The notes beneath the pieces were generated by a model. It saw nothing but the letters and a program-made list of their open reading frames with translations. It was not told where the DNA came from and ran no database searches. Positions 3,409 to 24,797 of a stretch of DNA of 25,818 bases are shown here, in pieces. The stretch covers positions 1-25,818 of the IMG/VR virus record IMGVR_UViG_3300030098_000224. One strand, 5' to 3'. This DNA is from a virus. Position 1 is the stretch's first letter, and every line of letters starts with the position of its first letter. The position numbers and the translations under genes are program-made.

Positions 3409-3600
3409 TTATTTCTCGTGACACTCAAGAGAAAATCTATAAAATTGATTTAATTCATGTTTTATCCAATTATTCTGGACTATCTTACACTCCTCAAATG
3501 GCATTGGATGATTTAAAACCATTTGATTTCCAACATAAACCCATTCGTTACTAGCTGTAAGTCCCCATAAACTAATTACTAAAACATATAGTGTTTCCAC
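3409..3600 (-). CDS. Small exported or membrane-anchored two-cysteine protein (63 aa)
   Basis: Starts at GTG (TAGTG overlap). Residues 1-17 (METLYVLVISLWGLTAS) form a hydrophobic signal-like segment. The remaining short domain has two cysteines about 20 residues apart (EECKIV ... LECHEK) and aromatic residues around NQFYRF. The layout is like the 78-residue protein at 21504-21740, suggesting related small periplasmic proteins. A lysis accessory, such as a spanin-like subunit, is possible but there is no lipobox. Function is unknown. Confidence 0.65.
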   Translation of the reverse strand: METLYVLVISLWGLTASNEWVYVGNQMVLNHPMPFEECKIVQNNWIKHELNQFYRFSLECHEK

Positions 3601-3854
3601 TATCTCTTTTTCTTTTTAGCAGTCTTCTTTTTCTTACCACCTCTGAGTAAATCTTTATCTGCTTTTCTAGCTCCACCTTTCCCAGTCGCAAAACTCCGCA
3701 CACGCCCTGATGCCCATGCATGCTGTGAAACTTTAGGTCTTGAACCCGCAGAAAAATATGCGGCAGCACCTCTTGAATATACTTTACTTAAAGTTGATTT
3801 AGATATGCCACTTGATTTGTGATACTTATCAATAACTGCTTGTTTGCTACTCAT
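3600..3854 (-). CDS. DUF5824-like basic protein (84 aa)
   Basis: Residues about 19-66 read TLSKVYSRGAAAYFSAGSR, then SQHAWASGRVRSFATG and ARKADKDLL. This matches the DUF5824 pattern 'L..VY.RG.AA...GSRPG.S.H.WA..RV.SF..G....KADKDL'. The family is common in phages and nucleocytoplasmic large DNA viruses and is uncharacterised. The last 15 residues are almost all Lys/Arg. Their codons AAGAAAAAGAGA precede the TAGTG junction and serve as the next ribosome site. The start is ATG, in an ATGA overlap with the upstream gene. Confidence 0.85.
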   Translation of the reverse strand: MSSKQAVIDKYHKSSGISKSTLSKVYSRGAAAYFSAGSRPKVSQHAWASGRVRSFATGKGGARKADKDLLRGGKKKKTAKKKKR

Positions 3855-4042
3855 CCTTTACTCCTTTTTTTGCTAATAGCTTTCATCATAGCAGGAGTTA
3901 GTTTTCCTGCTTTATAAAGTTTTGCTGTTCTTTTTATTTCAGCTTCCCTTGCTTTTGGGTTTTTTGCACCACGAACATACTTAGTAGGAACACCACCTTT
4001 TGTTTTTGGAACAGGTTTAAATTTTCTTTTTTTCTTTTTCAT
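3851..4042 (-). CDS. Small conserved basic phage protein (63 aa)
   Basis: After a Lys-rich start (MKKKKRKFK) it reads GGVPTKYVRGAKNPKAREAE, then IKRTAKLYKAGKLTPAMMKA. The repeated phage pattern 'GVP.KY..GAKN...RE.EI..TA..Y..G.LTP.MM..ISK.RS' is familiar from other phage genomes, always as a short protein of unknown role. It is predicted to be mostly helical and very basic. ATGA overlaps join it to both neighbours, which suggests coupled translation. Confidence 0.8.
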   Translation of the reverse strand: MKKKKRKFKPVPKTKGGVPTKYVRGAKNPKAREAEIKRTAKLYKAGKLTPAMMKAISKKRSKG

Positions 4043-4269
4043 ATTTTGTTTGACCTATTCTTCTTTCTAGAAAGTATTCTAAGATTACTTTTCTTGTTGT
4101 TTGCTGTGTTCTTATCTTTGTGATGCACATCTTTTTTAGAATATTTTTTTACTCTACCTTCTCTTATCGCTTGTCGTCTAGCTTTATTTCTTTGTGCTCT
4201 TCTTTTTTTTTGTTCTTTACTTGCATGGTATGTTGCATATTCACGCTTGTAATTACGAACTCTTGTCAT
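4039..4269 (-). CDS. Small HNH-like protein (76 aa)
   Basis: The N-terminal half is an Arg/Lys-rich helix (YHASKEQKKRRAQRNKARRQ). The C-terminal half carries KDVHHKDKNTANNKKSNLRI (about residues 46-65), an HNH-type core with paired His, Asp, Asn and a NLR turn. Such short proteins, with 'Y...P.QK.RRA.RN.ARR' before 'DVDHKDGNP.NN...NLR', are common next to phage packaging or structural genes. It may be a DNA nicking or packaging accessory, or a structural remnant of an HNH domain, since it is much shorter than typical HNH nucleases. Confidence 0.75.
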   Translation of the reverse strand: MTRVRNYKREYATYHASKEQKKRRAQRNKARRQAIREGRVKKYSKKDVHHKDKNTANNKKSNLRILSRKKNRSNKI

Positions 4270-4658
4270 TTCTTTTTAAACAAAGAAATAGCACCAGAAC
4301 CTGCCTTGATACCAAAGCTCGCTGAAATTGCGATGTAAAGTAAGTTGTGATAATATGCCGGCAGGTCTTGCAAAGCAATGAACCCACGATGCACATGCTC
4401 TTGAAAAGGCGTGAAGACTAAAACGGCCGGAAGGAGTAGTACAATTAAACTTACCTCATCTTTCCACGACCCCTTCATTTGGTCTACAGCACTTTGCTCC
4501 CAAGCAACTTTACCTGCAATCTGGTCTTGTTTAAGTTTTTGTTTTGCTTTAATTTCGGTGACGGCTAACTCAGCTTTTGCTTTCTTTGTTTCTGCAAAAG
4601 ACTTTACGCCATCCGCCACCACACCTAGTAAAGGTTTTGCTAATAATTGCCAAACCAT
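4266..4658 (-). CDS. Putative holin, GTA_holin_3TM type (130 aa)
   Basis: The layout matches the 3TM gene-transfer-agent/phage holin family (Pfam GTA_holin_3TM). A weakly hydrophobic N-terminal segment (about 5-15) is followed by a charged coiled helix (21-60), the conserved SWKDE before the first strong membrane span (about 69-84, SLIVLLLPAVLVFTPF), a loop with GFIALQDLP, and a second span (about 104-119). The C-terminus is FKKK. By family, it permeabilises the inner membrane at lysis. No endolysin is seen nearby, so this is a family-based call. It overlaps the upstream 35-codon ORF by TAATG. Confidence 0.8.
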   Translation of the reverse strand: MVWQLLAKPLLGVVADGVKSFAETKKAKAELAVTEIKAKQKLKQDQIAGKVAWEQSAVDQMKGSWKDEVSLIVLLLPAVLVFTPFQEHVHRGFIALQDLPAYYHNLLYIAISASFGIKAGSGAISLFKKK

Positions 4659-5121: not shown

Positions 5122-6155
5122 AGTATTTCTTCAGATGCCTCCTGCAAATTAAAAACTGGTTTTATAAATCTCAATGGCTCATCTTGACTAGGGTCAATGA
5201 TAAAACACATAGACTCCCATATTTTATGATTTCTAAACCCTTTCTGCAAGGAATATTCGTCTAACTCCTTGTATCCTGCCACTCTTACAGCATGTGAAAT
5301 CTTGCCGGTTTCGTGGTCTTTTACTATTTGATAGCCAGAAACATGCTTATGACCTGCTGCATAAATATCATCTGAGCCAAATCTAGCTGCCTTTGATACA
5401 GAGTGTGACTCATTCCATTGACTGTGACCTGCAAAATCATGTCTACAATTTAGTTTTATAGACCTGCCATTTGGACAAATTAAGTTTAATCTAAAGCCAT
5501 GATTTTCATAAACACCCGGCTTTGTTCTCATTATAAAATCTAAAACATTACCATGTTCATGTCCCCAAAAATCATGGTTACCACCTACAACTCCTGCCCA
5601 ATAAACTCCGCTACTACCAAGATACCACTCAATAAGTTTTATAGCTTGCTGTCTTGTTGTTTCTTGGTCAGCATACTTTGCCATGAGTCTGCCAATCCAA
5701 TTGTTTGTCAAATCTCCTATGTTTATTGCAACCATAGAAGAATCAATCATAGCTTTGTTATCTTGTGTTATGGCTTTCCAATTACAACCATCGTCATCAA
5801 GGTGTGGGTCTCCAACTATTGCAACTCCAAATACTCCATTAAATTTATTAGATAAATTTATGTTGATTAGTTTTCTAGCATTGTGTGCTGCTTGTTTTCT
5901 TTCCCATCTCTTTACACCTCTATCTACTAATTCTTCTGCTGATAAATCACCATCCGGTAATTCATCTACCCAGAAAGGAGGGTCTGACATTTCATCAGTA
6001 GTATTGTTTCTTTCTTTGTATTGATTAATTCTAAATCTAACTGTGCCTTCACTAACATTAAGTTCTCTTGCTACTGTCTGTGTTTTGCCATTGTGTTTTT
6101 TCCAACAGTCAAAAGTTTTTTGTAATATTTCGTTAGATGTTCTCTTTGCAGGCAT
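5097..6155 (-). CDS. HTH-calcineurin-like metallophosphoesterase (352 aa)
   Basis: Two parts are visible. Residues 8-50 form a helix-turn-helix (KTQTVARELNVSEGTVRFRI), like transposase or resolvase DNA-binding domains. Residues about 105-330 form a calcineurin-like phosphoesterase with all metal-ligand motifs: GDPHLDD (D116, H118), GDLTN (D148), GGNHD (N193, H194, D195), the C237-x-HDFAGHS region (H239, H244) and GHKH (H269, H271). By family it hydrolyses phosphoesters using two metal ions, with DNA or nucleotides as likely substrates in phages. The DNA-binding head suggests a nucleic-acid target. It sits between the late structural and small-gene blocks. Joined by TAATG to the upstream gene. 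Confidence 0.85.
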   Translation of the reverse strand: MPAKRTSNEILQKTFDCWKKHNGKTQTVARELNVSEGTVRFRINQYKERNNTTDEMSDPPFWVDELPDGDLSAEELVDRGVKRWERKQAAHNARKLININLSNKFNGVFGVAIVGDPHLDDDGCNWKAITQDNKAMIDSSMVAINIGDLTNNWIGRLMAKYADQETTRQQAIKLIEWYLGSSGVYWAGVVGGNHDFWGHEHGNVLDFIMRTKPGVYENHGFRLNLICPNGRSIKLNCRHDFAGHSQWNESHSVSKAARFGSDDIYAAGHKHVSGYQIVKDHETGKISHAVRVAGYKELDEYSLQKGFRNHKIWESMCFIIDPSQDEPLRFIKPVFNLQEASEEILWKRKKKI

Positions 6156-6394
6156 TACTTAATACCAATTGCTGTTTTCACTCCCAATACTAATAGAGCT
6201 ATGGCACCCGATATGATGAAACCAATAATAATAAATCTGACACGCAGACTAATCTTTTCATGTAATTTTCTTTGTTCTCGCAAATACATAAAATCTTTTT
6301 GGGCCTCATAAATTTCTTCCGAGTTAAGTCCCATTTTAGCGAGGGTTTCGTCAACTGTTTTTGATACTATTTCTTTTACCTCGTTTTCCGTCAT
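6155..6394 (-). CDS. Small membrane protein, DUF6127-like (79 aa)
   Basis: An N-terminal acidic helix (MTENEVKEIVSKTVDETL) carries the pattern 'ALGL(N/D)..D' as KMGLNSEEIYEAQKDF. A basic segment (EQRKLHEKISLRVR) is followed by one membrane span (FIIIGFIISGAIALLVLGV). The order resembles the small phage and prophage family DUF6127, of unknown function. The ATG at 6394 gives an ATGA overlap with the polyvalent gene. A GTG at 6406 would add four residues. The ATG is preferred because of the junction type and the GGTGG 8 bases upstream. A lysis or superinfection role is possible but unproven. Confidence 0.75.
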   Translation of the reverse strand: MTENEVKEIVSKTVDETLAKMGLNSEEIYEAQKDFMYLREQRKLHEKISLRVRFIIIGFIISGAIALLVLGVKTAIGIK

Positions 6395-9300
6395 AGCGTA
6401 AACCACCTCTCTCTTTTGACTCTTTCTCCCGTTTTTTTCTCATATTCAAGAACTTGCTCTATTAATGCTCTAATCATGTCATTTTTTAAAACATTAAGTT
6501 GTCTTACTTTGTCTATAATTTCAGCGTTAGATAGTCTCTTATCGGCCTCAATTAACCTTATTTGTCTATTTATTTGCTGTATTTTACGATTTACTCTGTT
6601 GTAGGATTTACGCCACACAAGTAAATTTTTCTGTTCAGTGGCTACATTCATAGCTTTTTCCCATTCACCTCTAGATTCATACAATCTTTGTAATGCAAAA
6701 ACCTCATTCATTTCTTGCAATTGGTCGTAAAACTGTGTTTTGTATTTAGATTGCACACTAGGTAAAGATTTAAAGAAACCCATAGCTAATGGAGTATCCC
6801 AACCTGTAGATGTGAATCTTGCATACTGTCTTGGATAATCTGTAAACGATACTGCTGCCGCAACTGTTGAACCAACCCATCCAAAGTAACCTTGAACTAA
6901 GTGTTCTATTTGCACAGGAGATAACCTTATTTTATCAAATGATATAGTATTTAATATTTTAGATGTGTTTACATAGGCAGAGCTTGTGTATGCATATTTT
7001 CTTTCTGTAGCAGGTAACCTTCTAAAAGCCATGCTTTCAACAGGTCTACCTGTAAAACTATCTTTGTTAGAGTAAACCTCTAAAGCAGGAGTTAAGAGTT
7101 GTGGTCTATAATCAAATGCAAAAGTCTCTGTAATTACATGTTGTATTCTTTCAGCTAATAAAGCTCCATGAACATCATCATCAACCATTTGCTCAACCAT
7201 TCTTTCAAAGATAACTCCGATAGCTCCTACCTCAAATGGTCTAGGTATTCTAAATACACCTTCTGTTCCGGGTATCTTAAACCAATGATATGTATCTCTA
7301 TCCCATTGTTCTCTTTGTTTAAAATCTTCATCATCTTTGTATGCAAGATATAAACCAATTGAAGCCAAAGAATAAGTTCCAAGAACAGCAAACAATTGTG
7401 CTCTTTGCTCTGGGCCCATTGCTCTTGTAAGTTTATCTAAACCTTGTAATCTTGCATTTAAGAAAGGAACAGATTGAGTTAAGAACCTAACAATAGGATT
7501 AGCACCATGTCTGCTAAAGTTTAATAAATCACGAGCTTGATAACTAGCTTCAAAGTGACTGACACCTTTATCTCTTAATTGTTTATAAAGTGCTGCTCTG
7601 TTTACATTCTCTGAAAAAGCACCTACATCCTCCCACCATCTAGCTGCTCCGCCTAATTGTTTGTATAATAATTTTCTTGCACCTGCACCCCAACCATTAG
7701 ATTTCATAATAGTGTTAGCATCAATCTGTCTATTTAATAACATTTCAGAAGCATTTGGGTCTGCTCCGTAAATATGTCCAAAGTGAATGCTACCACCACC
7801 AAAACCAAGTCTTGCTCTAAGCTCTGATGCTTGTTTATTTTTATCTTTTTTTAAACTACCAAATCCCTCTAATACGTTTCCAAGTGGATTAACTTTTAAT
7901 TTACCAACAGCAACAGAATGCACTGAATCTCTAATTAAGTTTCTAATTCTAAATGCAGGACTTGCAGTTACACCATAAGTTAAAAATCTTTTAAATTGTC
8001 GTAGTGTTCCCATCGCAGGATTTTGCCAACCATTCCAATTTAACGCTGTTAGAGATTGTAACACCAAAGGTTCATCAACCTCATAGAATACTTTTTTACC
8101 ATTCTTTCTTACAAATACAGATGTTTTTGTTGGAAACTTAACTTGTCTGGTTACACCCATAGTTGCACCTTTTTCAAGTGTTTTTAAACCTGCTGCATTT
8201 TTTAAAGATGCCTCAGTTAAGAAAGCATAGTTTTGAATTAAATTATTTAACAAATCATTTACAGGTAAATCAGAACCACGAAGAGCAGGATAATCTTTTT
8301 GATTAACAATATCAGCAGCAGCTTTAGGCCCACTGTTGCTAGCCTTGTCGTCTAGTAATCTATAGAAAGGTATGTAAAAATTAAATCCATCAACCTCAGT
8401 CCAAGCCTTTCTTGATTGTGGGTCTAAGTATCCAGATTTAACAGCTATATCTAAAAATGCGTTATTAAATTCTTGTAAATCTTTTAAACCTTCATTAAAT
8501 TTTTTTTCTCTACCTTTTTGTAAATCTTTTATTGCTACAATTACATCTGCTCGACTGGATAGTCCTGCTTCCATTCCTCTGTCGTATATAGCTTTTGCCC
8601 TGTTTGCTGCTACCCAAGTTAAAAAATCTGTAAGGTCTGGCCCTAATTTTTCTAGTCTTGAAAATAAACCTTTACCTAGAGTATTTGCTTTTAAATCTAT
8701 AGCACCATCTTTATCCATAAATGGAACACCATATAATAATGCTGATTCCGTAGCACCACTAGAACCATAAGTCATGGTTAATGCTTTGTATGGTTCTTCA
8801 CCTATAAATTTTTTGACTGATATATATTGGTCAGTTAAACCTTGTTGTAATCTAACACCAAAGTTATCTGCGTACTGTTTCCAAAATCCTGCAATAGTTC
8901 TTCTAGACCTTTTAGGATTTACTGTTGCTTGTACTCTTTGAGTTGCTTCTTCATATTTTCTATCAGTAACGGCAAACTCTAAATTGTTTTCTATAAGTTT
9001 TTCTTGCGATAACGTATCTAGTTCAGACTTACCTACGTTTTCTTTATCACCTTCTGTTTCAAACTTGTAAAGAACTTGTGACTCAATGTTATCTAATGGC
9101 TCTGGTGCATCCTCTCTAGAGTAATACTCTAGTTCGCCTTCTGTATACACTTTAGTGTTAAACATTACGGCATCACCCTTAATAGATTTAACAGCAAACC
9201 CAGATGGGTCTACAAACAAGTGATGATTGAAAGGATTAAAGTTTAAAACTACACCATCTAATTTTGGTTTCTTACTAGAGTATTGACCTCTAGCAGCAGC

Positions 9301-12300
9301 CATAGGGAACTTGTTTTCTTTTTTAGAAGCTATATTTGCTCTTGCTCGTTGGCTTACAAATAAAGTTGGATTAGTTACTGTTACCGCACCATCGTATCCT
9401 AGAGCTTTATTTAGATTATTGCCCGGATGAATAGTTTGTATAAATAATTTGTTTTCGTTTTTCTCTACCTTACCCTTTAAGTTTGGTCTAACAGATACTC
9501 TCTCACCATCTTTAAGTTCTCTGTTTTTAAATAGTTTTGCTTTTACTCTATCTGGTATACCTGCTGATTCTGATATTTCTTTATCTGTAAGTAAATCTTC
9601 TGACACTGAAAATTGCAGCTCATCTGCATCTTTCATTTCTTTATCAGTAACAACCTCTCTTGTTATAAATGCATCTTTACCTACGACACCGGCTTTTTTT
9701 CTTGCACCTGTAATCCTTAGACCAGAGTATTTGGTGACACCTAGTCTATCTTTCATTTGTTTTGCAACTTGTCGCCACAAATTAACGGATGCTACCTTTG
9801 ATGGTTCGTTTAAAGTAAAATCAAATAACGATGTATTAGCTACATAAAAAGTGTCACTCTCTGTAATGGCACCTTGAATAACGCCTACGGGTTTATCATC
9901 TACGTCAATACCAATTTTAAATCTGCCTGTTCGGTCACCAAAATCTTTTACCTTTTTAAGTTTTTCGCCAGAATCAATTTCCATAATTCTAACATCACCT
10001 ACCTCTGCGTCATAGAAATCTGGACTAGGTTCGTCAAAGAAAACTAATTTTACTTTACCATCTATTTTTTTATCGGATACAGAAAACTCTTTTGGTATTA
10101 CATCTGTTAAATTATCAGAGACGCTTAAATCTTTTTGTCCTTTTGGTTGTCTTGTGATTCTTTCGCCATCTACTTCAAACCCTGCTCTCTTGTACCAATC
10201 AGCTAATTTTTTCTTACTTAAACCTTTATCTCCAAATGGGTCAATGATACCTGTAATTACAGAACCCTCTTCATCTGCTACTTTAATAATTTCTCCAAGT
10301 GCTTCTGATGCGTAACCTTGTCCTCTGCCTTCTTTTGGAACAGATATAGCTGATAAATCTAATGCATCTTTGTCAAATATATTTAATTCTACTTCTACAT
10401 AATTACCTGTTTTAAATATATTATCGAATTGTTTTAAACCTTTTTCTGGTTGTATTGCATCACTAGGAAGCAACATAAAAGTATAGCCTCTTTTTAAAGG
10501 ATGTTTTCTTACGCTATATTTACCAAATTTATTTATTTCTTCGAAATTATTTGCTTTAGCTAAAATTTCATTTGTAAACATTTGTTGACCCTTGACCATC
10601 TCTGGTTTGAATCCTAATATTTTTTTAAATGCTTTTTCTGATGTGCTTAATGAAAACTGAGGTATTTCTCCGTCATCAGTTTGTTTTTTTATTTGTTGTC
10701 TTTGGCTGACTGAGAGTTGTCTTGTTTCTGTTTTTTCTTTTGTGACTCTTTCTTCATCTTTTTGTCTTCTAAGTCTAGCCTGAGATTCAATGCTTGGCTG
10801 ACGATTTTTAAGCTCTCTTTCTCCATAGTTTTTTCCTTTATCAAAATTATCTATATACTTTTGAGCACCCTCTGACAAGTACATAGCACGAACTGTTCTA
10901 ATACCTAAATCTCTGTAAAGATTGTGCTCATAAAACCAATGCACAGCTTGTGCATCTTTAGCAGATAAACCTACTCTTTTCCCTAAATCATTATAAAATT
11001 GGTCACCTCTTTTAATATGTTGAGATAGAAAATCTGCTCTTACTCCATCTTTCTGTGTTTTATCTGTGAGCATACCAAACTGTCTGTAAAAACTTCTTGT
11101 TGCCCACAAATCTTTTGTTACTGCTTTACCTTCTTTGTCAGCAACACCAGATATGTTTAAAAAATATGAACCAACTTTGTTGCCAAACATATACGCACCT
11201 AAGTGCTCACTATCTAAACCACCAAGCATATCAGATGGTTCAGCAGTTTTACCATAATTTAGTTTAAATACACCACCATAGTCTTCTTCTCCAGACTTAA
11301 CCATTATATCTTTCATAGTTCTTTTGGTATGAATACTGTTTAAAAATCTCACAGCACCTTTTTCACCTTTTGAGTCTATTAGATATTGTAATAAAGCAAG
11401 CTGTTTACTAATTGTATCTCTACCAAAAAATTTATCTGTATTAGATGGTTGCTTTAAAGGTAAAGCTCCGAATTTTTTGTAATAAGAAAATACTCTACCT
11501 GCCCTTTCAATATTTTCTACTGGAGTAGATTGAGGAGATGTAATACCAGTTATTACTGTAAACAAATCTTTGTCGTACTGATTTTTTACCTGTATTTTTT
11601 TATTTAAAATTTTAAATTTCTTTATAATATCTTTATCATACCAACCACGACCATCGTCTTCTTGACTTTCTATTTGATATCTTATTTCTTTTTCAGCAGC
11701 ATCTAGTGCACGATTATATGCGGCATCATCAAGTGGGTCACTTTTATTTACTAATTTATCAAAGAAAGGCCCTGCTTGATTTACTTTTTTTAATTTAGTT
11801 GTAGGTTTTTCTCTAAATTTTACAGTAGATACAGCTAGTTCTAATCCCGGTGCTCTCTCTACTGCTCTTGCATAAGCCTTACCTATTCTTGTTAATTCTG
11901 CTTGTCCGTATTCTTGACTTACATTTCTACCAGATGCATCACCTATTCTTGCTGTTGCACCAGTAACATCATCTCTAACAATTATGTATTCTTTATCGCT
12001 GAGTAATTGTTGTTCGTTATTTGCTAATAATACAACATCCTCTGCTTCACCTTTTTGCTCTGGTCTTCTTCTTGCGACCTGCATTTTAAGAAGTCTGTTA
12101 CCTGTTATACCTCTGTTATAAATTGTTTTAATTATCTCTTCCCCGTAGTTCGGGTCAATATTAGGTATAATAGATTTGATATCACCCTTGTCTGTTTTAA
12201 CAGTCGTAAGTGATAATTCTTTTTTATCTTCTCTTGCTAGTGCTTCTTTTCGTAATTGTTCTACACCCTCTTTAGGTTTAGCTCTCTTACCTATCTCACC

Positions 12301-14295
12301 TGTTCTAGCTTTTTCAAACAGTTGGTTAACATTATTAATTTTGTTTTTTCTAAATACATTACCTGCACGCTTGACTAATTCAAACAAGCGATTAAATGCT
12401 CTTATGACTGGATTAGGTGCTGCAAGGTTTTTCTTTTTAGCTTTTAATGCAGTGTATGCTCCAAAGGCATAAGCTTGCATCTCTCTGTTAGAAAGATTGT
12501 TTTCTCCATGTCGCTCTTGCAATCTCTGCATAACATCTTTGCCGAGACCACGCTGTACAGACGGAGCGATTTCAGATACTTTACCACCCGGCAAAAAAGT
12601 GTCTAGTGCCGTTTGTTCTGCTTCCAAGAATAAACCACTCTGATAACCACGATTTATCTGTCTCTGCAACGCATGAAAATTTTCATGTGCAGTAGTTTCT
12701 ACGGCTTTTGATTGGTCTATTAATGAGATTGCTGCTAGGTCACTTGTTCTGTCATACCAACCATCGACTACGGAAAACTCGTTTCCGCCAGATGCTTTGA
12801 CATTTGACAGATTGCCTTTTGGTAAGGCTATATTTTTTTGAAAGTAAACTTGTTGTACATGTGGTGCAATAGTGTTTCCAACATCTTCTAATTCATTGAT
12901 TAGATTACCTACAGTTGGGTTTTCTTTAACTATAGCTTCTTTAGTAAAGTATGTTTGTTCTGTTAATTTGTTTTTTTGGTCTTCTTGTTTTTGCTGCTCT
13001 GCTGTGGCTTCTGCTTCGGTATTAAATGTTCCAATTGTACCTATACTCGATACATTTCCTGCTGTATCTAAGTCCTGTCTTTTTAATGCAAATTTTTCTC
13101 CCTGCTTTTCTACTACAAAGTTTTTGGGTTTGGCTTGCTCTGTTTTTACCTGTTCTTCAGTTGCTGTATCAATTTGTTCTGGCGTTACTTTAGTGTCTTG
13201 TATTACACCTTTTTCTACCTTTGGTGCCTCTACAGGTTTTTCTACAGGAGTTGTAGGAGTTGGTTGTACTGTTCTAGCTGTTTCACCTGCTACAGTTGAT
13301 ACACCACCAAGTAATCCACCGACAAAACCACCTGCAAAAGCTGCTTCTTTATACTCAGCCAACGCCTCTGGTGAATCTATTGGTAAACCTGCTTGATATC
13401 TTTCAAGAGCTTGCTGACCTACCTCAGTTGCTGCCTCCGTTACTAATCCTGCTGTCGAACCTTTGGCAACACGACCTAATGTTGCTTGACTTAAAATATC
13501 TGAGAATTGTGTTCTTGTAAGTGGGCCAAATAATCTACCCATTATAGGGTACATTAAAGATTCTGCTGCTGCTTGTGGCAATGCTGTAAAAGCAGCTAAT
13601 CGCTCATCTATTGTTTCTAGATTACCTGCATTAACTTGTTCTTGCTGTCTACTAATATTAAATTCAAACAATCTTGGAAACGCTGCTGTTGCACCACCTA
13701 AAAGAGCACCTGCCGCAGCACCTAATGGCCCTGCAAAACGACCTATTTTTGCACCTGCTATCGCACCTGCTGCACCCTCTACTATGAAAGGTGATGATTG
13801 TCCAAAAGCTGATAAACCTGCTTTAACAAAAGTGCTTAATCCTGCATCTGGGCCCTCTGTTGCTTGTGCAAAACTTACATAACCAGTGCCTCTTAATATG
13901 TTTGCATCTTGAATTTCTGCTTGGTTGTATAATTGTGCCGCTCTCTCTTCGTCTCCCATGAGACCTGCAATACCACCTCTTAATCTTGTTATTGCCGGGC
14001 CCCACGACCTTGCCCAACTTGATTTAAGTGGGCCTGTCAACGCTTGACCAAAACCTACATCGGATGGACTTTTGGCAGGAGCAAAAGCTCTCTTACCACC
14101 TGTACGAATATCGGGAGATGTTAAATCAGTAGGACTAGCAACAGGAGAAACTTGTCTTTCTTCTGTTAAACTTTTAATAAATTGTTCTGGACTTAAATCA
14201 CCTTGATAGTCATCTAGAAGTTGCTCTATAAGCTCATCGTCACTTACATAAGCAAGACTAGGGTTTTCATCTCTAATCTGGTCTAATAAACTCAT
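6391..14295 (-). CDS. Giant phage polyvalent protein with HExxH, GNAT and LPD38-like regions (2634 aa)
   Basis: This is the largest gene, about 31% of the window. The N-terminus (SLAYVSDDELIEQLLDD) is followed by Ala/Gly-rich hydrophobic segments at about 155-218 and 320-340 that could enter membranes. Next come a Gln/Lys/Glu-rich linker (about 350-450), an HExxH motif (H537-E538-H541), a domain around 850-1130 with TGITSPQSTP and KDLWATR, a GNAT domain (about 1214-1390, GRGQGYA 1323-1329), a second alpha/beta module (1404-1562), a module with GYDGAVTVTNPTLFV and FNPFNHHLFVDPSG (1562-1774), and a long helical C-terminal region matching the LPD38 type (about 1900-2634, FRIRNLIRD and LQGLDKLTRA), ending in a coiled coil. 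Polyvalent proteins are thought to be packaged and injected with DNA to act on the host. Eight [FL]-[SA]-[VL]-[ST] peptides separate the modules. AGGAGT precedes the ATG. Confidence 0.85.
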   Translation of the reverse strand: MSLLDQIRDENPSLAYVSDDELIEQLLDDYQGDLSPEQFIKSLTEERQVSPVASPTDLTSPDIRTGGKRAFAPAKSPSDVGFGQALTGPLKSSWARSWGPAITRLRGGIAGLMGDEERAAQLYNQAEIQDANILRGTGYVSFAQATEGPDAGLSTFVKAGLSAFGQSSPFIVEGAAGAIAGAKIGRFAGPLGAAAGALLGGATAAFPRLFEFNISRQQEQVNAGNLETIDERLAAFTALPQAAAESLMYPIMGRLFGPLTRTQFSDILSQATLGRVAKGSTAGLVTEAATEVGQQALERYQAGLPIDSPEALAEYKEAAFAGGFVGGLLGGVSTVAGETARTVQPTPTTPVEKPVEAPKVEKGVIQDTKVTPEQIDTATEEQVKTEQAKPKNFVVEKQGEKFALKRQDLDTAGNVSSIGTIGTFNTEAEATAEQQKQEDQKNKLTEQTYFTKEAIVKENPTVGNLINELEDVGNTIAPHVQQVYFQKNIALPKGNLSNVKASGGNEFSVVDGWYDRTSDLAAISLIDQSKAVETTAHENFHALQRQINRGYQSGLFLEAEQTALDTFLPGGKVSEIAPSVQRGLGKDVMQRLQERHGENNLSNREMQAYAFGAYTALKAKKKNLAAPNPVIRAFNRLFELVKRAGNVFRKNKINNVNQLFEKARTGEIGKRAKPKEGVEQLRKEALAREDKKELSLTTVKTDKGDIKSIIPNIDPNYGEEIIKTIYNRGITGNRLLKMQVARRRPEQKGEAEDVVLLANNEQQLLSDKEYIIVRDDVTGATARIGDASGRNVSQEYGQAELTRIGKAYARAVERAPGLELAVSTVKFREKPTTKLKKVNQAGPFFDKLVNKSDPLDDAAYNRALDAAEKEIRYQIESQEDDGRGWYDKDIIKKFKILNKKIQVKNQYDKDLFTVITGITSPQSTPVENIERAGRVFSYYKKFGALPLKQPSNTDKFFGRDTISKQLALLQYLIDSKGEKGAVRFLNSIHTKRTMKDIMVKSGEEDYGGVFKLNYGKTAEPSDMLGGLDSEHLGAYMFGNKVGSYFLNISGVADKEGKAVTKDLWATRSFYRQFGMLTDKTQKDGVRADFLSQHIKRGDQFYNDLGKRVGLSAKDAQAVHWFYEHNLYRDLGIRTVRAMYLSEGAQKYIDNFDKGKNYGERELKNRQPSIESQARLRRQKDEERVTKEKTETRQLSVSQRQQIKKQTDDGEIPQFSLSTSEKAFKKILGFKPEMVKGQQMFTNEILAKANNFEEINKFGKYSVRKHPLKRGYTFMLLPSDAIQPEKGLKQFDNIFKTGNYVEVELNIFDKDALDLSAISVPKEGRGQGYASEALGEIIKVADEEGSVITGIIDPFGDKGLSKKKLADWYKRAGFEVDGERITRQPKGQKDLSVSDNLTDVIPKEFSVSDKKIDGKVKLVFFDEPSPDFYDAEVGDVRIMEIDSGEKLKKVKDFGDRTGRFKIGIDVDDKPVGVIQGAITESDTFYVANTSLFDFTLNEPSKVASVNLWRQVAKQMKDRLGVTKYSGLRITGARKKAGVVGKDAFITREVVTDKEMKDADELQFSVSEDLLTDKEISESAGIPDRVKAKLFKNRELKDGERVSVRPNLKGKVEKNENKLFIQTIHPGNNLNKALGYDGAVTVTNPTLFVSQRARANIASKKENKFPMAAARGQYSSKKPKLDGVVLNFNPFNHHLFVDPSGFAVKSIKGDAVMFNTKVYTEGELEYYSREDAPEPLDNIESQVLYKFETEGDKENVGKSELDTLSQEKLIENNLEFAVTDRKYEEATQRVQATVNPKRSRRTIAGFWKQYADNFGVRLQQGLTDQYISVKKFIGEEPYKALTMTYGSSGATESALLYGVPFMDKDGAIDLKANTLGKGLFSRLEKLGPDLTDFLTWVAANRAKAIYDRGMEAGLSSRADVIVAIKDLQKGREKKFNEGLKDLQEFNNAFLDIAVKSGYLDPQSRKAWTEVDGFNFYIPFYRLLDDKASNSGPKAAADIVNQKDYPALRGSDLPVNDLLNNLIQNYAFLTEASLKNAAGLKTLEKGATMGVTRQVKFPTKTSVFVRKNGKKVFYEVDEPLVLQSLTALNWNGWQNPAMGTLRQFKRFLTYGVTASPAFRIRNLIRDSVHSVAVGKLKVNPLGNVLEGFGSLKKDKNKQASELRARLGFGGGSIHFGHIYGADPNASEMLLNRQIDANTIMKSNGWGAGARKLLYKQLGGAARWWEDVGAFSENVNRAALYKQLRDKGVSHFEASYQARDLLNFSRHGANPIVRFLTQSVPFLNARLQGLDKLTRAMGPEQRAQLFAVLGTYSLASIGLYLAYKDDEDFKQREQWDRDTYHWFKIPGTEGVFRIPRPFEVGAIGVIFERMVEQMVDDDVHGALLAERIQHVITETFAFDYRPQLLTPALEVYSNKDSFTGRPVESMAFRRLPATERKYAYTSSAYVNTSKILNTISFDKIRLSPVQIEHLVQGYFGWVGSTVAAAVSFTDYPRQYARFTSTGWDTPLAMGFFKSLPSVQSKYKTQFYDQLQEMNEVFALQRLYESRGEWEKAMNVATEQKNLLVWRKSYNRVNRKIQQINRQIRLIEADKRLSNAEIIDKVRQLNVLKNDMIRALIEQVLEYEKKTGERVKRERWFTL
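10129..10653 (-). other. Embedded GNAT acetyltransferase domain
   Basis: Residues about 1215-1389 contain the beta4-alpha3 acetyl-CoA loop as AISVPKEGRGQGYASEAL (Q/R-x-x-G-x-G/A satisfied by RGQGYA), a downstream beta5 (SVITGIIDP) and the typical C-terminal KLADWYKRAGFE. The domain is bounded on both sides by paired junction peptides (1194 and 1214; 1390 and 1404). Substrate is unknown; a host protein or amino group is plausible for an injected effector. Confidence 0.75.
12673..12687 (-). other. HExxH zinc-metallopeptidase motif in the polyvalent protein
   Basis: Codons 537-541 read H-E-N-F-H in the context TTAHENFHALQRQ. HExxH with an upstream threonine/alanine helix is the zincin signature (two His ligands plus catalytic Glu). 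A third ligand is not obvious; candidates are acidic residues in GLFLEAEQTALD, about 15-20 residues later. Activity is therefore inferred, not shown. Confidence 0.6.
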
Positions 14296-21503: not shown

Positions 21504-21740
21504 CTACACTCCTAAATTAATTTTGTTTAAACCACTTATTGGAAAACTCTCAAACTCTACACAGTATGCTTCCATTTGTGTGTTTTTTTTATATGCCTCT
21601 GATTTAAGTTTAAAGCCTTCTTGTAACTCGTACTTTGCAAACTCGCAATCACCTTGAGTAGAATATATGTAACCATTATATTTTACTGATGGTGCATTTG
21701 GAAATGAAAACAAAACTAACATAAACCAAATCTTAACCAT
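21504..21740 (-). CDS. Small exported two-cysteine protein (78 aa)
   Basis: A signal-like N-terminus (MVKIWFMLVLFSFPNA) precedes a short domain with two cysteines about 30 residues apart (GDCEF ... EAYCVEF), aromatic residues (YNGYIYS) and a C-terminal Pro-Ile-Ser stretch. It has the same layout as the 63-residue protein at 3409-3600. No lipobox is evident. It lies between a membrane-anchored coiled-coil protein and the tail-collar fibre. The stop overlaps the ribosome site of the fibre gene. Function is unknown; periplasmic location is inferred. Confidence 0.7.
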   Translation of the reverse strand: MVKIWFMLVLFSFPNAPSVKYNGYIYSTQGDCEFAKYELQEGFKLKSEAYKKNTQMEAYCVEFESFPISGLNKINLGV

Positions 21741-22258
21741 TATCCGCCTAATGGATTAGACGTAGATAATTTTAATTCCTCTATTTGCACATCTTGTAAT
21801 TCATTTTCCTTTTTAATAATTGCAATACCTTTAGAATTTTCTTCAATGTCCTCTTCTAATTCCCAAGCATACTCCTCTAATTCTTTTATAGGCGTGCGTA
21901 ATTTTTTATCTAATTTATCTATGTCATCGTTAGATGCTGCATCTGCTAAAACAGATTGTATTACTTTAATATCTTTTATTATGTCTTGTGTAATAGCTTT
22001 AATATCATTGCTGTTACCTGCAATGTCATTTCTTAAATTATCTAATACATCATTATCTAAACTTATTATTGTAGTTTCTAATTCTTTCAATTTAACTTCT
22101 ATGTCTGTTAAATCTACAGTTTCATTTACCACAAACTCTTTATTTTCTATTTGGTCTAATCGCAAATTAAATTGACCCCATGTGTAGAAACCTCCACCTA
22201 TGGCACCGATAACTCCAATTAGTGCTGCGTATGTGCTTAATTTTTCTATAATTTTCAT
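21740..22258 (-). CDS. Membrane-anchored coiled-coil protein (172 aa)
   Basis: One N-terminal membrane span (about 10-28, YAALIGVIGAIGGGFYTWGQ) follows a short cytoplasmic MKIIEKLST. The rest (about 30-165) is a highly charged helix with heptad-like Leu/Ile spacing (IEVKLKELETTIISLDNDVL, LDKKLRTPIKELEEYAWELE), so a type II membrane protein with a periplasmic coiled coil. The topology is that of inner-membrane spanins, though they are usually shorter and lack this much acidic content. A virion trans-envelope factor is equally possible. Linked by ATGA and TAATG overlaps. Confidence 0.7.
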   Translation of the reverse strand: MKIIEKLSTYAALIGVIGAIGGGFYTWGQFNLRLDQIENKEFVVNETVDLTDIEVKLKELETTIISLDNDVLDNLRNDIAGNSNDIKAITQDIIKDIKVIQSVLADAASNDDIDKLDKKLRTPIKELEEYAWELEEDIEENSKGIAIIKKENELQDVQIEELKLSTSNPLGG

Positions 22259-24069
22259 TTTTTCAATGCCTCCAGTTCAGCTAATATTTTATTTTTCTTT
22301 TTATTTATATCTAAAAGTTTAACTCTGTGTATCTCCACAGGGTCATTGTCAGTGTAAGAACTTAAAGATGTATTAACATATATTTCACCAGAATATGTTG
22401 ATAAATCTATTTGGAGAAAAAACCCCATATTCGTATTGTCATATATTTCTTTAGCTGTGTAAAAAACTATTTCTGAATACGAATCGAGGTCATTTCCCTT
22501 AAAAAATATATCCTCTTTTGACAAGTTATTCGTTGTTTCTTTTGTAACTTTAGCAATCTGTTTTGCTATAGTTTTTAAATTCTTTTTTAATTTTGTTTCG
22601 GTAGCTGCAATATCTTTAACAACTTCAGTATCTGCATTGACCTCTTCCGATTGTATGTCTTCTTGCTCTCCACTCTCTTCTGTTGATACATCGGACTCCT
22701 CAGATTCTGTGCTATCGGGTTTCTCCTCCTCTGTTTCATTTTTCGCTACTTCTTTTTCTTCTTCTACTTCATCTGACTCAGTAACATCCTCCACTGTTTC
22801 TGTTTCATTCTCCTCAACCTCTGAAAGGCTTTCTTCCTCCGTTGTGATATCTTCCAGTGGCTCTTCAAACTCCTCAAAAGATTCCTCAGTAAGTTCATCA
22901 TTGAACTCCTCCTCAGTTATCTCTTCAAAAAATTCTTCGGCCGTAATACCTTCTTCTTCTAGAAACTCCATAAACTCTTCTTCCATGCCAGTTTCTTCTA
23001 AAAATTCTGTAAAGTCCTCCTCAAACTCCTCTGTAAATATTTCTTCTGTAACCATCATAGGTTCAGAAAACTCTTCTTCAAAAAATACCATTTCCATTTC
23101 TGGTATTTCTTCAAAAACCTCCATATCAAATTCTTCTATTGGAGGAAGTTCGTCTATGTATATTTCTTCAAAAGTAAAAGTATCATCAAATGTAAAATCA
23201 TCTTCGATAATTATTATATCATCTTCAAAATATAAATCGTCTGTATTCCAATCAAAATCATCTGGAATATTTTCAACAATATCAATTATATCCTCGTTAA
23301 TATCTTCGATATCGTCTTGTGTGTTTTCATCTATAGGGTTAAACTCTACATTGTTGTAGGTCATGTTTAAAGATGCACCTAATAAGTTTGGCCCTTGTCT
23401 AGATTGATTACTATAATTACTATCTGTGCCAGTCCAAGACCAATCTACATTGTTAGCACCAAGACCAAGATAGATTATTCTATCGTTATATTGACCACAT
23501 GCTCCTGCAACTGCACCAGATGAACCCGGATAGCCATTGCAATTACCTTGAAATCCTGTAACTTCAGTTCTTGTTTGTGACACAGTTGATAAAGTGTTAC
23601 CACTATTATCTTTTAATACTACAGTTGTAGTATGAGAATCATTCGCACCACCTTTAGATTCACAATTACCTTGCGTGCTTTCACAGTTTGCAACATCGAC
23701 ATGACTATTTAAAGTTATGCCATTATCTAACATTGGTTGAGTTATAGTATTGCTGTATAACTTTACATCACTAGCAGATACTGTGGCAGTGCCAGTTACT
23801 TCAAAGTCACCACCAACATCATACTTGTAGCCACAATTAGCCTGCCCAGTAGGACAAGTAATTGTAAAACCATTTACGTTTGCACCATTAGAAACAAAAC
23901 CACTACCACCATCATTAATCATGTCAGTAGACGATGAGTTCCAATCTACACCATCATTAGCATTTGGTAATAAATTACCAGTTGTAATAGTTTGTGTATT
24001 ACCTACACTGTATATGCAAAGAAAGGATATCGCTATGGATAACCATATGCTGTAATATAAATATCTCAT
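22255..24069 (-). CDS. Exported protein with Cys-paired beta domain and extreme acidic region (604 aa)
   Basis: Residues 1-25 are a signal peptide (YYSIWLSIAISFLCIYSVG). Residues 26-240 form a Gly/Asn/Thr-rich beta domain with three cysteine pairs (CPTGQANC, CESTQGNC, CNGYPGSSGAVAGAC), consistent with disulphides outside the cytoplasm. Residues about 242-486 are dominated by Glu and Asp with repeated FxEF/EFLEE-type units (EFLEETGM, EFLEEEGIT, EFFEEIT). The last 115 residues are a mixed domain with a basic coiled end (LKKNLKTIAKQIAKVTKE). I recall similar acidic proteins in marine phages but no function. Calcium binding, a solvation coat, or cell-surface targeting are possibilities. ATGA overlaps on both sides. 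Confidence 0.7.
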   Translation of the reverse strand: MRYLYYSIWLSIAISFLCIYSVGNTQTITTGNLLPNANDGVDWNSSSTDMINDGGSGFVSNGANVNGFTITCPTGQANCGYKYDVGGDFEVTGTATVSASDVKLYSNTITQPMLDNGITLNSHVDVANCESTQGNCESKGGANDSHTTTVVLKDNSGNTLSTVSQTRTEVTGFQGNCNGYPGSSGAVAGACGQYNDRIIYLGLGANNVDWSWTGTDSNYSNQSRQGPNLLGASLNMTYNNVEFNPIDENTQDDIEDINEDIIDIVENIPDDFDWNTDDLYFEDDIIIIEDDFTFDDTFTFEEIYIDELPPIEEFDMEVFEEIPEMEMVFFEEEFSEPMMVTEEIFTEEFEEDFTEFLEETGMEEEFMEFLEEEGITAEEFFEEITEEEFNDELTEESFEEFEEPLEDITTEEESLSEVEENETETVEDVTESDEVEEEKEVAKNETEEEKPDSTESEESDVSTEESGEQEDIQSEEVNADTEVVKDIAATETKLKKNLKTIAKQIAKVTKETTNNLSKEDIFFKGNDLDSYSEIVFYTAKEIYDNTNMGFFLQIDLSTYSGEIYVNTSLSSYTDNDPVEIHRVKLLDINKKKNKILAELEALKK

Positions 24070-24797
24070 TCATGCACATTGATAATTGGTTGTTCTTCAA
24101 TAACTTCTATTTCTTCTTCTATTTTTGACTCATGTAATTTTTTAGCGTTTTCTTCTGCTATTCTTTTGGCCTCTTCTTGTCTCTCTATCTCTGCTAATTC
24201 TTCATCTATCTTAGACCTTGTTTCTAATTTAGATACATAAGAATTATAATCTGGTCTTTCAACATCGTATTTTTTCCATTGTGCTATTGCTTCTGCACCA
24301 ATCTTACCTTCAAACGGACACGGAGTTCCTGCCATTTCCATCGCAAAAAAAACTCGTTCATCTTGACACAAAATTGACACAGCCGCAATCTTCATGCCAT
24401 AATCGAAAAGCACCTTACTGAGCTTTATTCTTTCACAATTAAGGTCACGAAAATGCTTGCCGCCAGAAATACCAACACCAAGAGTAGATAAAGAACCACT
24501 AATCCCCATGCTACAAACATCTTGAGACATAGCTGAATAGGAAGGTGCATTAGCTGAGTTAACGGGTATATCTGACCCATTGGTGGTTGAATTATTTGTT
24601 GTTGTTGATGTAGTTGTATTTGTTTGACCATCGTTATTATTTGTTGTTGTTGATGTGTATCCACCTGTTATTTGTGTATTACTACCAGATGAATTTGTTT
24701 GTGAATTATTATCATTTGTAGAATCAGCAAATATAGGTTTAGAAAATATTACAATTAAAGTTAATAATATAATATTTATTAAATTAAATTTAAACAT
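24066..24797 (-). CDS. Exported four-cysteine protein with Asn/Thr repeat (243 aa)
   Basis: A clear signal peptide (residues 1-24, hydrophobic core LINIILLTLIVIF, cleavage after PIFA) is followed by a low-complexity Asn/Thr/Ser stretch (26-75). A compact domain (about 85-170) has cysteines at 95, 121, 144 and 160 (QDVCSMG, LNCERIKLSKVLFDYGM, ILCQDERVF, TPCPFEG). A charged coiled helix (185-235) closes the protein. The SMGISGSLSTLGVGISGGKH segment is Gly/Ser-rich. I recognise it only as a recurrent unknown of marine phages. The signal peptide and paired cysteines place it in the periplasm or outer surface. TAATG junction upstream. Confidence 0.7.
   Translation of the reverse strand: MFKFNLINIILLTLIVIFSKPIFADSTNDNNSQTNSSGSNTQITGGYTSTTTNNNDGQTNTTTSTTTNNSTTNGSDIPVNSANAPSYSAMSQDVCSMGISGSLSTLGVGISGGKHFRDLNCERIKLSKVLFDYGMKIAAVSILCQDERVFFAMEMAGTPCPFEGKIGAEAIAQWKKYDVERPDYNSYVSKLETRSKIDEELAEIERQEEAKRIAEENAKKLHESKIEEEIEVIEEQPIINVHE
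24592..24656 (-). repeat. In-frame 45-bp-spaced direct repeat (Asn/Thr tract)
   Basis: An identical 20-base unit occurs at 24592-24611 and 24637-24656, 45 bases (15 codons) apart. It encodes a shared T-S-T-T-T-N-N unit in the exported 243-residue protein. It looks like a slippage or duplication-prone linker whose length may vary between strains. Confidence 0.6.

Follow-up and report, generated by a model that had tools for sequence, protein, structure and literature searches.

Why would an apparently exported phage protein carry about 245 residues in which almost every second one is glutamate or aspartate? The question is raised by IMG/VR virus record IMGVR_UViG_3300030098_000224, a 25.8-kb virus record analysed over all its 25,818 nucleotides (the window), and by the 604-amino acid (aa) open reading frame (ORF) that is the middle gene of a set of three, here called the trio. 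None of 50,697 phage records matched the window closely at the DNA level. Its protein relatives are found in Pelagibacter phages and viral contigs, which points to a SAR11 host. SAR11 are the commonest bacteria of the ocean. The acidic stretch is real, under selection and, according to structural models, mostly disordered around one folded acidic module. As to the trio, our best guess is that it helps the phage to break out of the cell.

Residues 242-486 contain 110 Asp or Glu (D/E) in 245 positions (45%; 81 Glu and 29 Asp), 4 Lys, no Arg, 23 Phe and 20 Ile, with a net charge of -106. In 17 other proteins of the window, the highest D/E fraction in any stretch of 245 residues was 0.24. The stretch is therefore extreme for this window, but the description "mostly Glu/Asp", given in an initial annotation made from the sequence alone, overstates the share. 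A composition artefact of an AT-rich genome was rejected, because AT-rich DNA would also be enriched in the Lys codon AAA, yet Lys is nearly absent from the stretch and the other window proteins are not acidic. Opposite the tract, on the plus strand (22637-23359), lies a serine-rich ORF of 240 aa, which is best read as a by-product of the GAA and GAT codons of the tract.

The initial annotation had proposed repeats rather than random acidity. Off-diagonal self-similarity of the tract was 103, compared with 78.8 ± 13.5 in shuffled sequences (shuffle maximum 118, z 1.8), periodicity over the whole of residues 242-486 gave p = 0.07-0.08, and Tandem Repeats Finder reported only minor arrays of 3-11 bases. 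Weak local periods of about 6 residues and 4-4.5 residues were present in residues 247-340 and 341-430, respectively. Tandem repeats in the window protein were thus rejected by the shuffles. Some relatives do carry them. Units such as EEEMIEEEPPMMTESFP recur every 17 residues in L047, L060 and L129-L131, and L056 has a related repeat (z 8.5-15 in all of these); in L058, L059 and L068 the spacing is 9 residues (z 6-8). Repetition is one way in which the tract changes within the family and not the state of the window protein.

Acidity itself is retained and selected, in agreement with the initial annotation, which had read the stretch as something other than random acidity. In 85 distinct relatives, the tract measured 215 ± 36 residues, with 42 ± 4% D/E (range 33-50%) and a net charge of -86 ± 22 (range -38 to -126). 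Among 14 close relatives, residues 341-404 were the most constrained part of the protein (89% identity), with a ratio of nonsynonymous to synonymous substitution (dN/dS) of 0.08. The head and tail gave 0.19 and 0.30, respectively, and the flanking acidic spacers evolved faster, at 0.36 (residues 243-340) and 0.60 (residues 405-482), with many insertions and deletions. The T4-like phage Mosig and its relatives also have the module (E 5e-7 to 9e-5) and the C-terminal domain. In L166 (PBDY01000027.1, 8410-10215), whose middle gene was recognised by gene order, DDDSSMG repeats and Ser/Glu runs replace the EEF-type tract at the equivalent position. Selection here plainly acts on composition, for the spacer stays acidic even as its residues change on either side of the one conserved module. 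Homologues with a neutral linker or without the region, which the initial annotation had held to weigh against its view, do exist: MW202481, a relative by gene order only, has a Pro/Lys/Glu linker that is nearly neutral (net -1), and the middle proteins of roseophages CRP-207 and CRP-810 have no acidic stretch although the trio order is kept. The 85 relatives, on the other hand, keep their acidity.

The head of the protein follows a different course, being exchanged as a block. In L041, the signal sequence is 83% similar to that of the window protein, the head only 25% and the remainder 88%, while the downstream partner is nearly identical. At the N-terminus, a hydrophobic signal-type helix is replaced in relatives by unrelated signal-like sequences. 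Six cysteines of the beta domain (C72, C79, C129, C136, C177 and C191) are invariant in 36 aligned relatives. Signal-type N-termini of differing sequence, conserved cysteines and exported neighbours together suggest that the protein is exported, in line with the initial annotation, which had also correctly placed a Cys-bearing beta domain beside the acidic stretch. The basic coiled end that it described on the other side is confined to a coil at about residues 481-514, as the whole C-terminal end (483-604) has a net charge of only +1.

Two AlphaFold2 models were made, one of the whole protein (36 sequences) and one of residues 335-604 (46 sequences). The first predicted an N-terminal hydrophobic helix (2-21), a beta sandwich at about 57-242 with a confidence of mostly 65-85, a helix at 248-266 and then disorder to 340, with a predicted local distance difference test score (pLDDT) of about 30. 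Three helices followed at 341-389 (about 70), then disorder to about 480, a coil at 481-514, a stretch that was modelled poorly and a last helix at 577-603. The second model again showed the helical module, at about 81-83, and the C-terminal helix, at above 90; it had no match in the PDB. The acidic amphipathic helices of the initial annotation are thus predicted, but only in a module of about 50 residues (341-389, pLDDT about 70-83), and most of the stretch is predicted to be disordered. A SAM domain was considered for the module; the motif DFTEFLEETGMEEEFMEFLEEEGITAEEFFEEITEEEF was attractive, but the SAM_2 match was below threshold (E 0.027, 15.1 bits against a cut-off of 20.5) and no PDB fold matched, so this assignment is not claimed. 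The modelled head resembled the sugar-binding domain of Fbs1 and carbohydrate-binding module (CBM) structures (Foldseek E 6e-6 to 1e-3, modest TM-scores). The window head had no Pfam match, and the head of HTVC033P matched CBM_4_9 at E 0.011, below the cut-off. The head is described here as sugar-binding-like, and it may bind a glycan.

The two neighbours of the gene are as constant as the tract. A four-cysteine exported protein was encoded upstream (within 830 bases) in 108 of 108 loci with room for it, and downstream (within 360 bases) 111 of 111 encoded a membrane-anchored coiled coil, usually with NPL at its end; these loci are redundant and contain 92 distinct focal proteins. The same trio order was found in the isolates HTVC033P, HTVC202P, HTVC023P, Baldr, S28C10, HTVC115P and Mosig; carriers of the trio include unrelated pelagiphages, ranging from podophages to the T4-like Mosig. 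HTVC033P, which carries trio relatives, is among the most abundant pelagiphage isolates (PMC9038755). Small exported-looking proteins with a cysteine pair were present in 55 of the 92 neighbourhoods. In the third trio protein, the hydropathy of the membrane segment is moderate, and the charge pattern is N-in, C-out in 82 of 82 members. The proteins encoded just downstream of the focal gene have net charges of -17 and 0, and an interaction of the tract with basic small proteins encoded there, as suggested initially, found no such partners. The collection of bacterial and archaeal genomes yielded no relative to a profile of the core and C-terminal domain, and the family therefore looks viral. 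The four-cysteine domain matched nine contigs only, all from metagenome-assembled genomes and scattered in their labels, and we read these as phage contigs in bins. A host or chromosomal origin was rejected on both results. Searches of defence families and NCBI families gave no meaningful match. We did not find the trio described in the sources searched.

From the computed gene order, conservation, head swapping, predicted disorder and helices, and retained acidity, we infer, tentatively and at somewhat less than even confidence, a sugar-binding complex that is exported, spans the envelope and has a polyanionic spacer, and that acts most likely in lysis or release. The signal peptide would carry the focal protein across the inner membrane, and the sugar-binding-like head would touch a glycan in the envelope or on the cell surface. 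The acidic tract would serve as a mostly disordered polyanionic spacer, whose conserved helical module would probably dock a partner. The C-terminal coiled domain may bind the neighbouring membrane-anchored NPL coiled coil, and the four-cysteine protein may be the third member of a complex that starts at the inner membrane and crosses the periplasm. Late in infection, such a complex could disrupt the outer membrane or allow clean release of progeny in a spanin-like manner.

A role in lysis or release is suggested by the lysis neighbours of the trio in several lineages. A GTA_holin_3TM protein adjoins the trio of Mosig and a peptidase M15 that of HTVC023P, a lysozyme lies near the trio of HTVC033P, and L167 has an endolysin and a holin-like gene near it; a Phage_lysozyme cluster was present in 16 of the 92 neighbourhoods. 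In L168 (NZEU01000035.1), a 118-kb myophage-like contig, an overlapping Rz/Rz1-like spanin pair is encoded just upstream of the trio in the same gene run (5595-6375 and 7728-10608). A crude pattern match that recovers lambda Rz1 as a positive control detected no lipobox ORF in HTVC202P, nor in 50 of the 53 kb of HTVC033P. In Baldr, an unannotated ORF of 54 aa with a plausible lipobox lies on the minus strand at about 37085-37250, in the gap between two annotated genes, and is possibly a missed lipoprotein gene.

Several observations weigh against a role in lysis. In HTVC202P and Baldr the trio adjoins the terminase gene, far from the endolysin. In the window it lies between tail genes, and the holin-like gene is about 17 kb off (4266-4658, minus strand; a 130-aa membrane protein similar to phrog_2524 and holin-like by topology). 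The presence of both a spanin pair and the trio in L168 indicates that the trio is not simply a spanin substitute, and weakens the idea that it is a universal one. Moreover, lysis has no obvious need for head swapping.

This last point leaves receptor masking or superinfection exclusion as a serious rival, although an unlikely one. Here, the exported head would cover the surface glycan used by the phage's own tail fibre, with the spacer pushing it outward, and would stop re-adsorption to debris and exclude competitors. Swapping of a sugar-binding-like head fits a role in specificity, and the retention of signal and remainder in L041 is as expected for a specificity determinant; the window trio also directly adjoins tail fibre and chaperone genes. 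However, no known exclusion family was matched, the lipobox scan of HTVC202P and HTVC033P revealed no outer-membrane anchor, and the lysis genes beside the trio in several lineages speak for another function. The same resemblance of the head to carbohydrate-binding modules could also indicate a receptor-binding protein of the virion, which we consider improbable. Similarly named metaviromic-island genes of marine phages have been read as host recognition genes (PMC3909814), and S28C10, a record of that naming scheme, is a verified member of the family. It is the sole verified one, so that an overlap of the family with the 14 metaviromic-island genes is a lead and not a result. A virion protein is hard to reconcile with a signal-type N-terminus in every relative and with neighbours that appear exported or membrane-anchored. 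If the envelope reading is true, annotations as a tail receptor-binding protein would be wrong.

Two further explanations concern the tract itself, and both appear very unlikely to us. According to the initial annotation, repeated acidic helices would bind divalent cations. The high D/E density and the tandem acidic repeats of some relatives agree with this, but the window protein has no repeats, Pfam showed no calcium-binding domain, and most of the tract is predicted to be disordered, so that cation binding gained no support. DNA mimicry, proposed alongside it, was likewise unsupported and would be an implausible task for an exported protein. A passive low-complexity linker with no function in itself would account for the dN/dS of the second spacer and for the many insertions and deletions in both spacers. 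It would not account for the constraint on residues 341-404, for the D/E content and net charge kept by the 85 relatives, or for the different acidic motif of L166 at the equivalent position.

Known systems resemble the trio in part. Related pelagiphage proteins are built like the window protein, from a signal, a beta head, an acidic tract and a coiled C-terminal domain, and their genes have the same neighbours on both sides, but they have other head types and acidic tracts that are shorter or differently composed (111-216 aa). Rz/Rz1 spanins also combine an inner-membrane protein with a predicted periplasmic coiled coil and exported partners, and the trio, like them, sometimes stands beside lysis genes. 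Unlike them, the trio has three proteins, a sugar-binding-like head and no lipobox o-spanin, and L168 has both systems. The third trio protein has a membrane segment and a charge pattern that would suit an inner-membrane spanin, and it gave no match to an Rz-like spanin profile. The Mu releasin (gp25, DUF2730; PMC9239132) is, like the third trio protein, small, with an N-terminal membrane segment and a coiled coil, and one relative is annotated as DUF2730; however, the predicted topology is opposite. Identity with the releasin was rejected, as five third-gene proteins had no PF10805 match at E up to 1. Third-gene coiled coils are annotated as DUF2730 or lysozyme in L085 (AP013540.1, 9358-9582), CRP-810 (gp51) and CRP-207 (gp73), and Pfam did not support such an annotation for the two tested (S28C10 and CRP-207). 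The CsgGF proteins of pelagimyophages, for which a role in lysis timing was proposed (PMC9004378), likewise belong to phages of streamlined marine bacteria and are exported to the envelope, but they are curli pore proteins with no acidic tract described and are distinct from the trio. TonB-type periplasmic spacers are extended low-complexity linkers too, and the gene-order relative MW202481 is annotated "transport protein tonB"; they are Pro/Lys-rich and anchored by their own N-terminus, whereas the focal tract is acidic and sits on an exported protein without a TonB domain.

The literature searched contained no confirmed account of how SAR11 phages breach the outer membrane, and the trio, being conserved and made up of proteins that appear to be exported, offers concrete candidates for this step. 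In its most specific form, the lysis or release reading would make the trio a new three-protein envelope machine of alphaproteobacterial marine phages, whose exported lectin-like component, with a head that can be exchanged and a spacer that is polyanionic and partly folded, would be held by the inner-membrane NPL coil and would break or open the SAR11 outer membrane; we regard this as conceivable but rather doubtful.

Table 1. Features of the trio and of the focal protein (positions in the window).
Feature	Position	Strand	Remarks
Trio first gene, 243-aa exported protein	24066..24797	-	Domain of four invariant cysteines (phrog_20531)
Trio middle gene, 604-aa exported protein	22255..24069	-	Sugar-binding-like head, acidic tract, coiled C-terminal domain
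Residues 1-26, signal-type N-terminus	23992..24069	-	Helix 2-21 in model; unrelated signal-like sequences in relatives
Residues 27-242, beta-sandwich head	23344..23991	-	Six invariant cysteines; CBM-like; block-exchanged in relatives
Residues 243-340, acidic spacer 1	23050..23343	-	Net -39; mostly predicted disordered; dN/dS 0.36
Residues 341-404, conserved acidic helical module	22858..23049	-	dN/dS 0.08
Residues 405-482, acidic spacer 2	22624..22857	-	Predicted disordered; dN/dS 0.60
Residues 483-604, conserved C-terminal domain	22258..22623	-	Coil and terminal helix; common to T4-like pelagimyophages
Trio third gene, 172-aa protein	21740..22258	-	N-terminal membrane segment; coiled coil ending NPLGG
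78-aa exported-looking protein	21504..21740	-	Cysteine pair; frequent trio companion

Elsewhere in the window, the minus strand encodes a 2634-aa protein (6391-14295) with the large polyvalent protein domain LPD38 (PF18857), two genes from a match to a DNA ejection protein family. At 3600-4269, the same strand encodes three small, very basic proteins in a row (63-84 aa).
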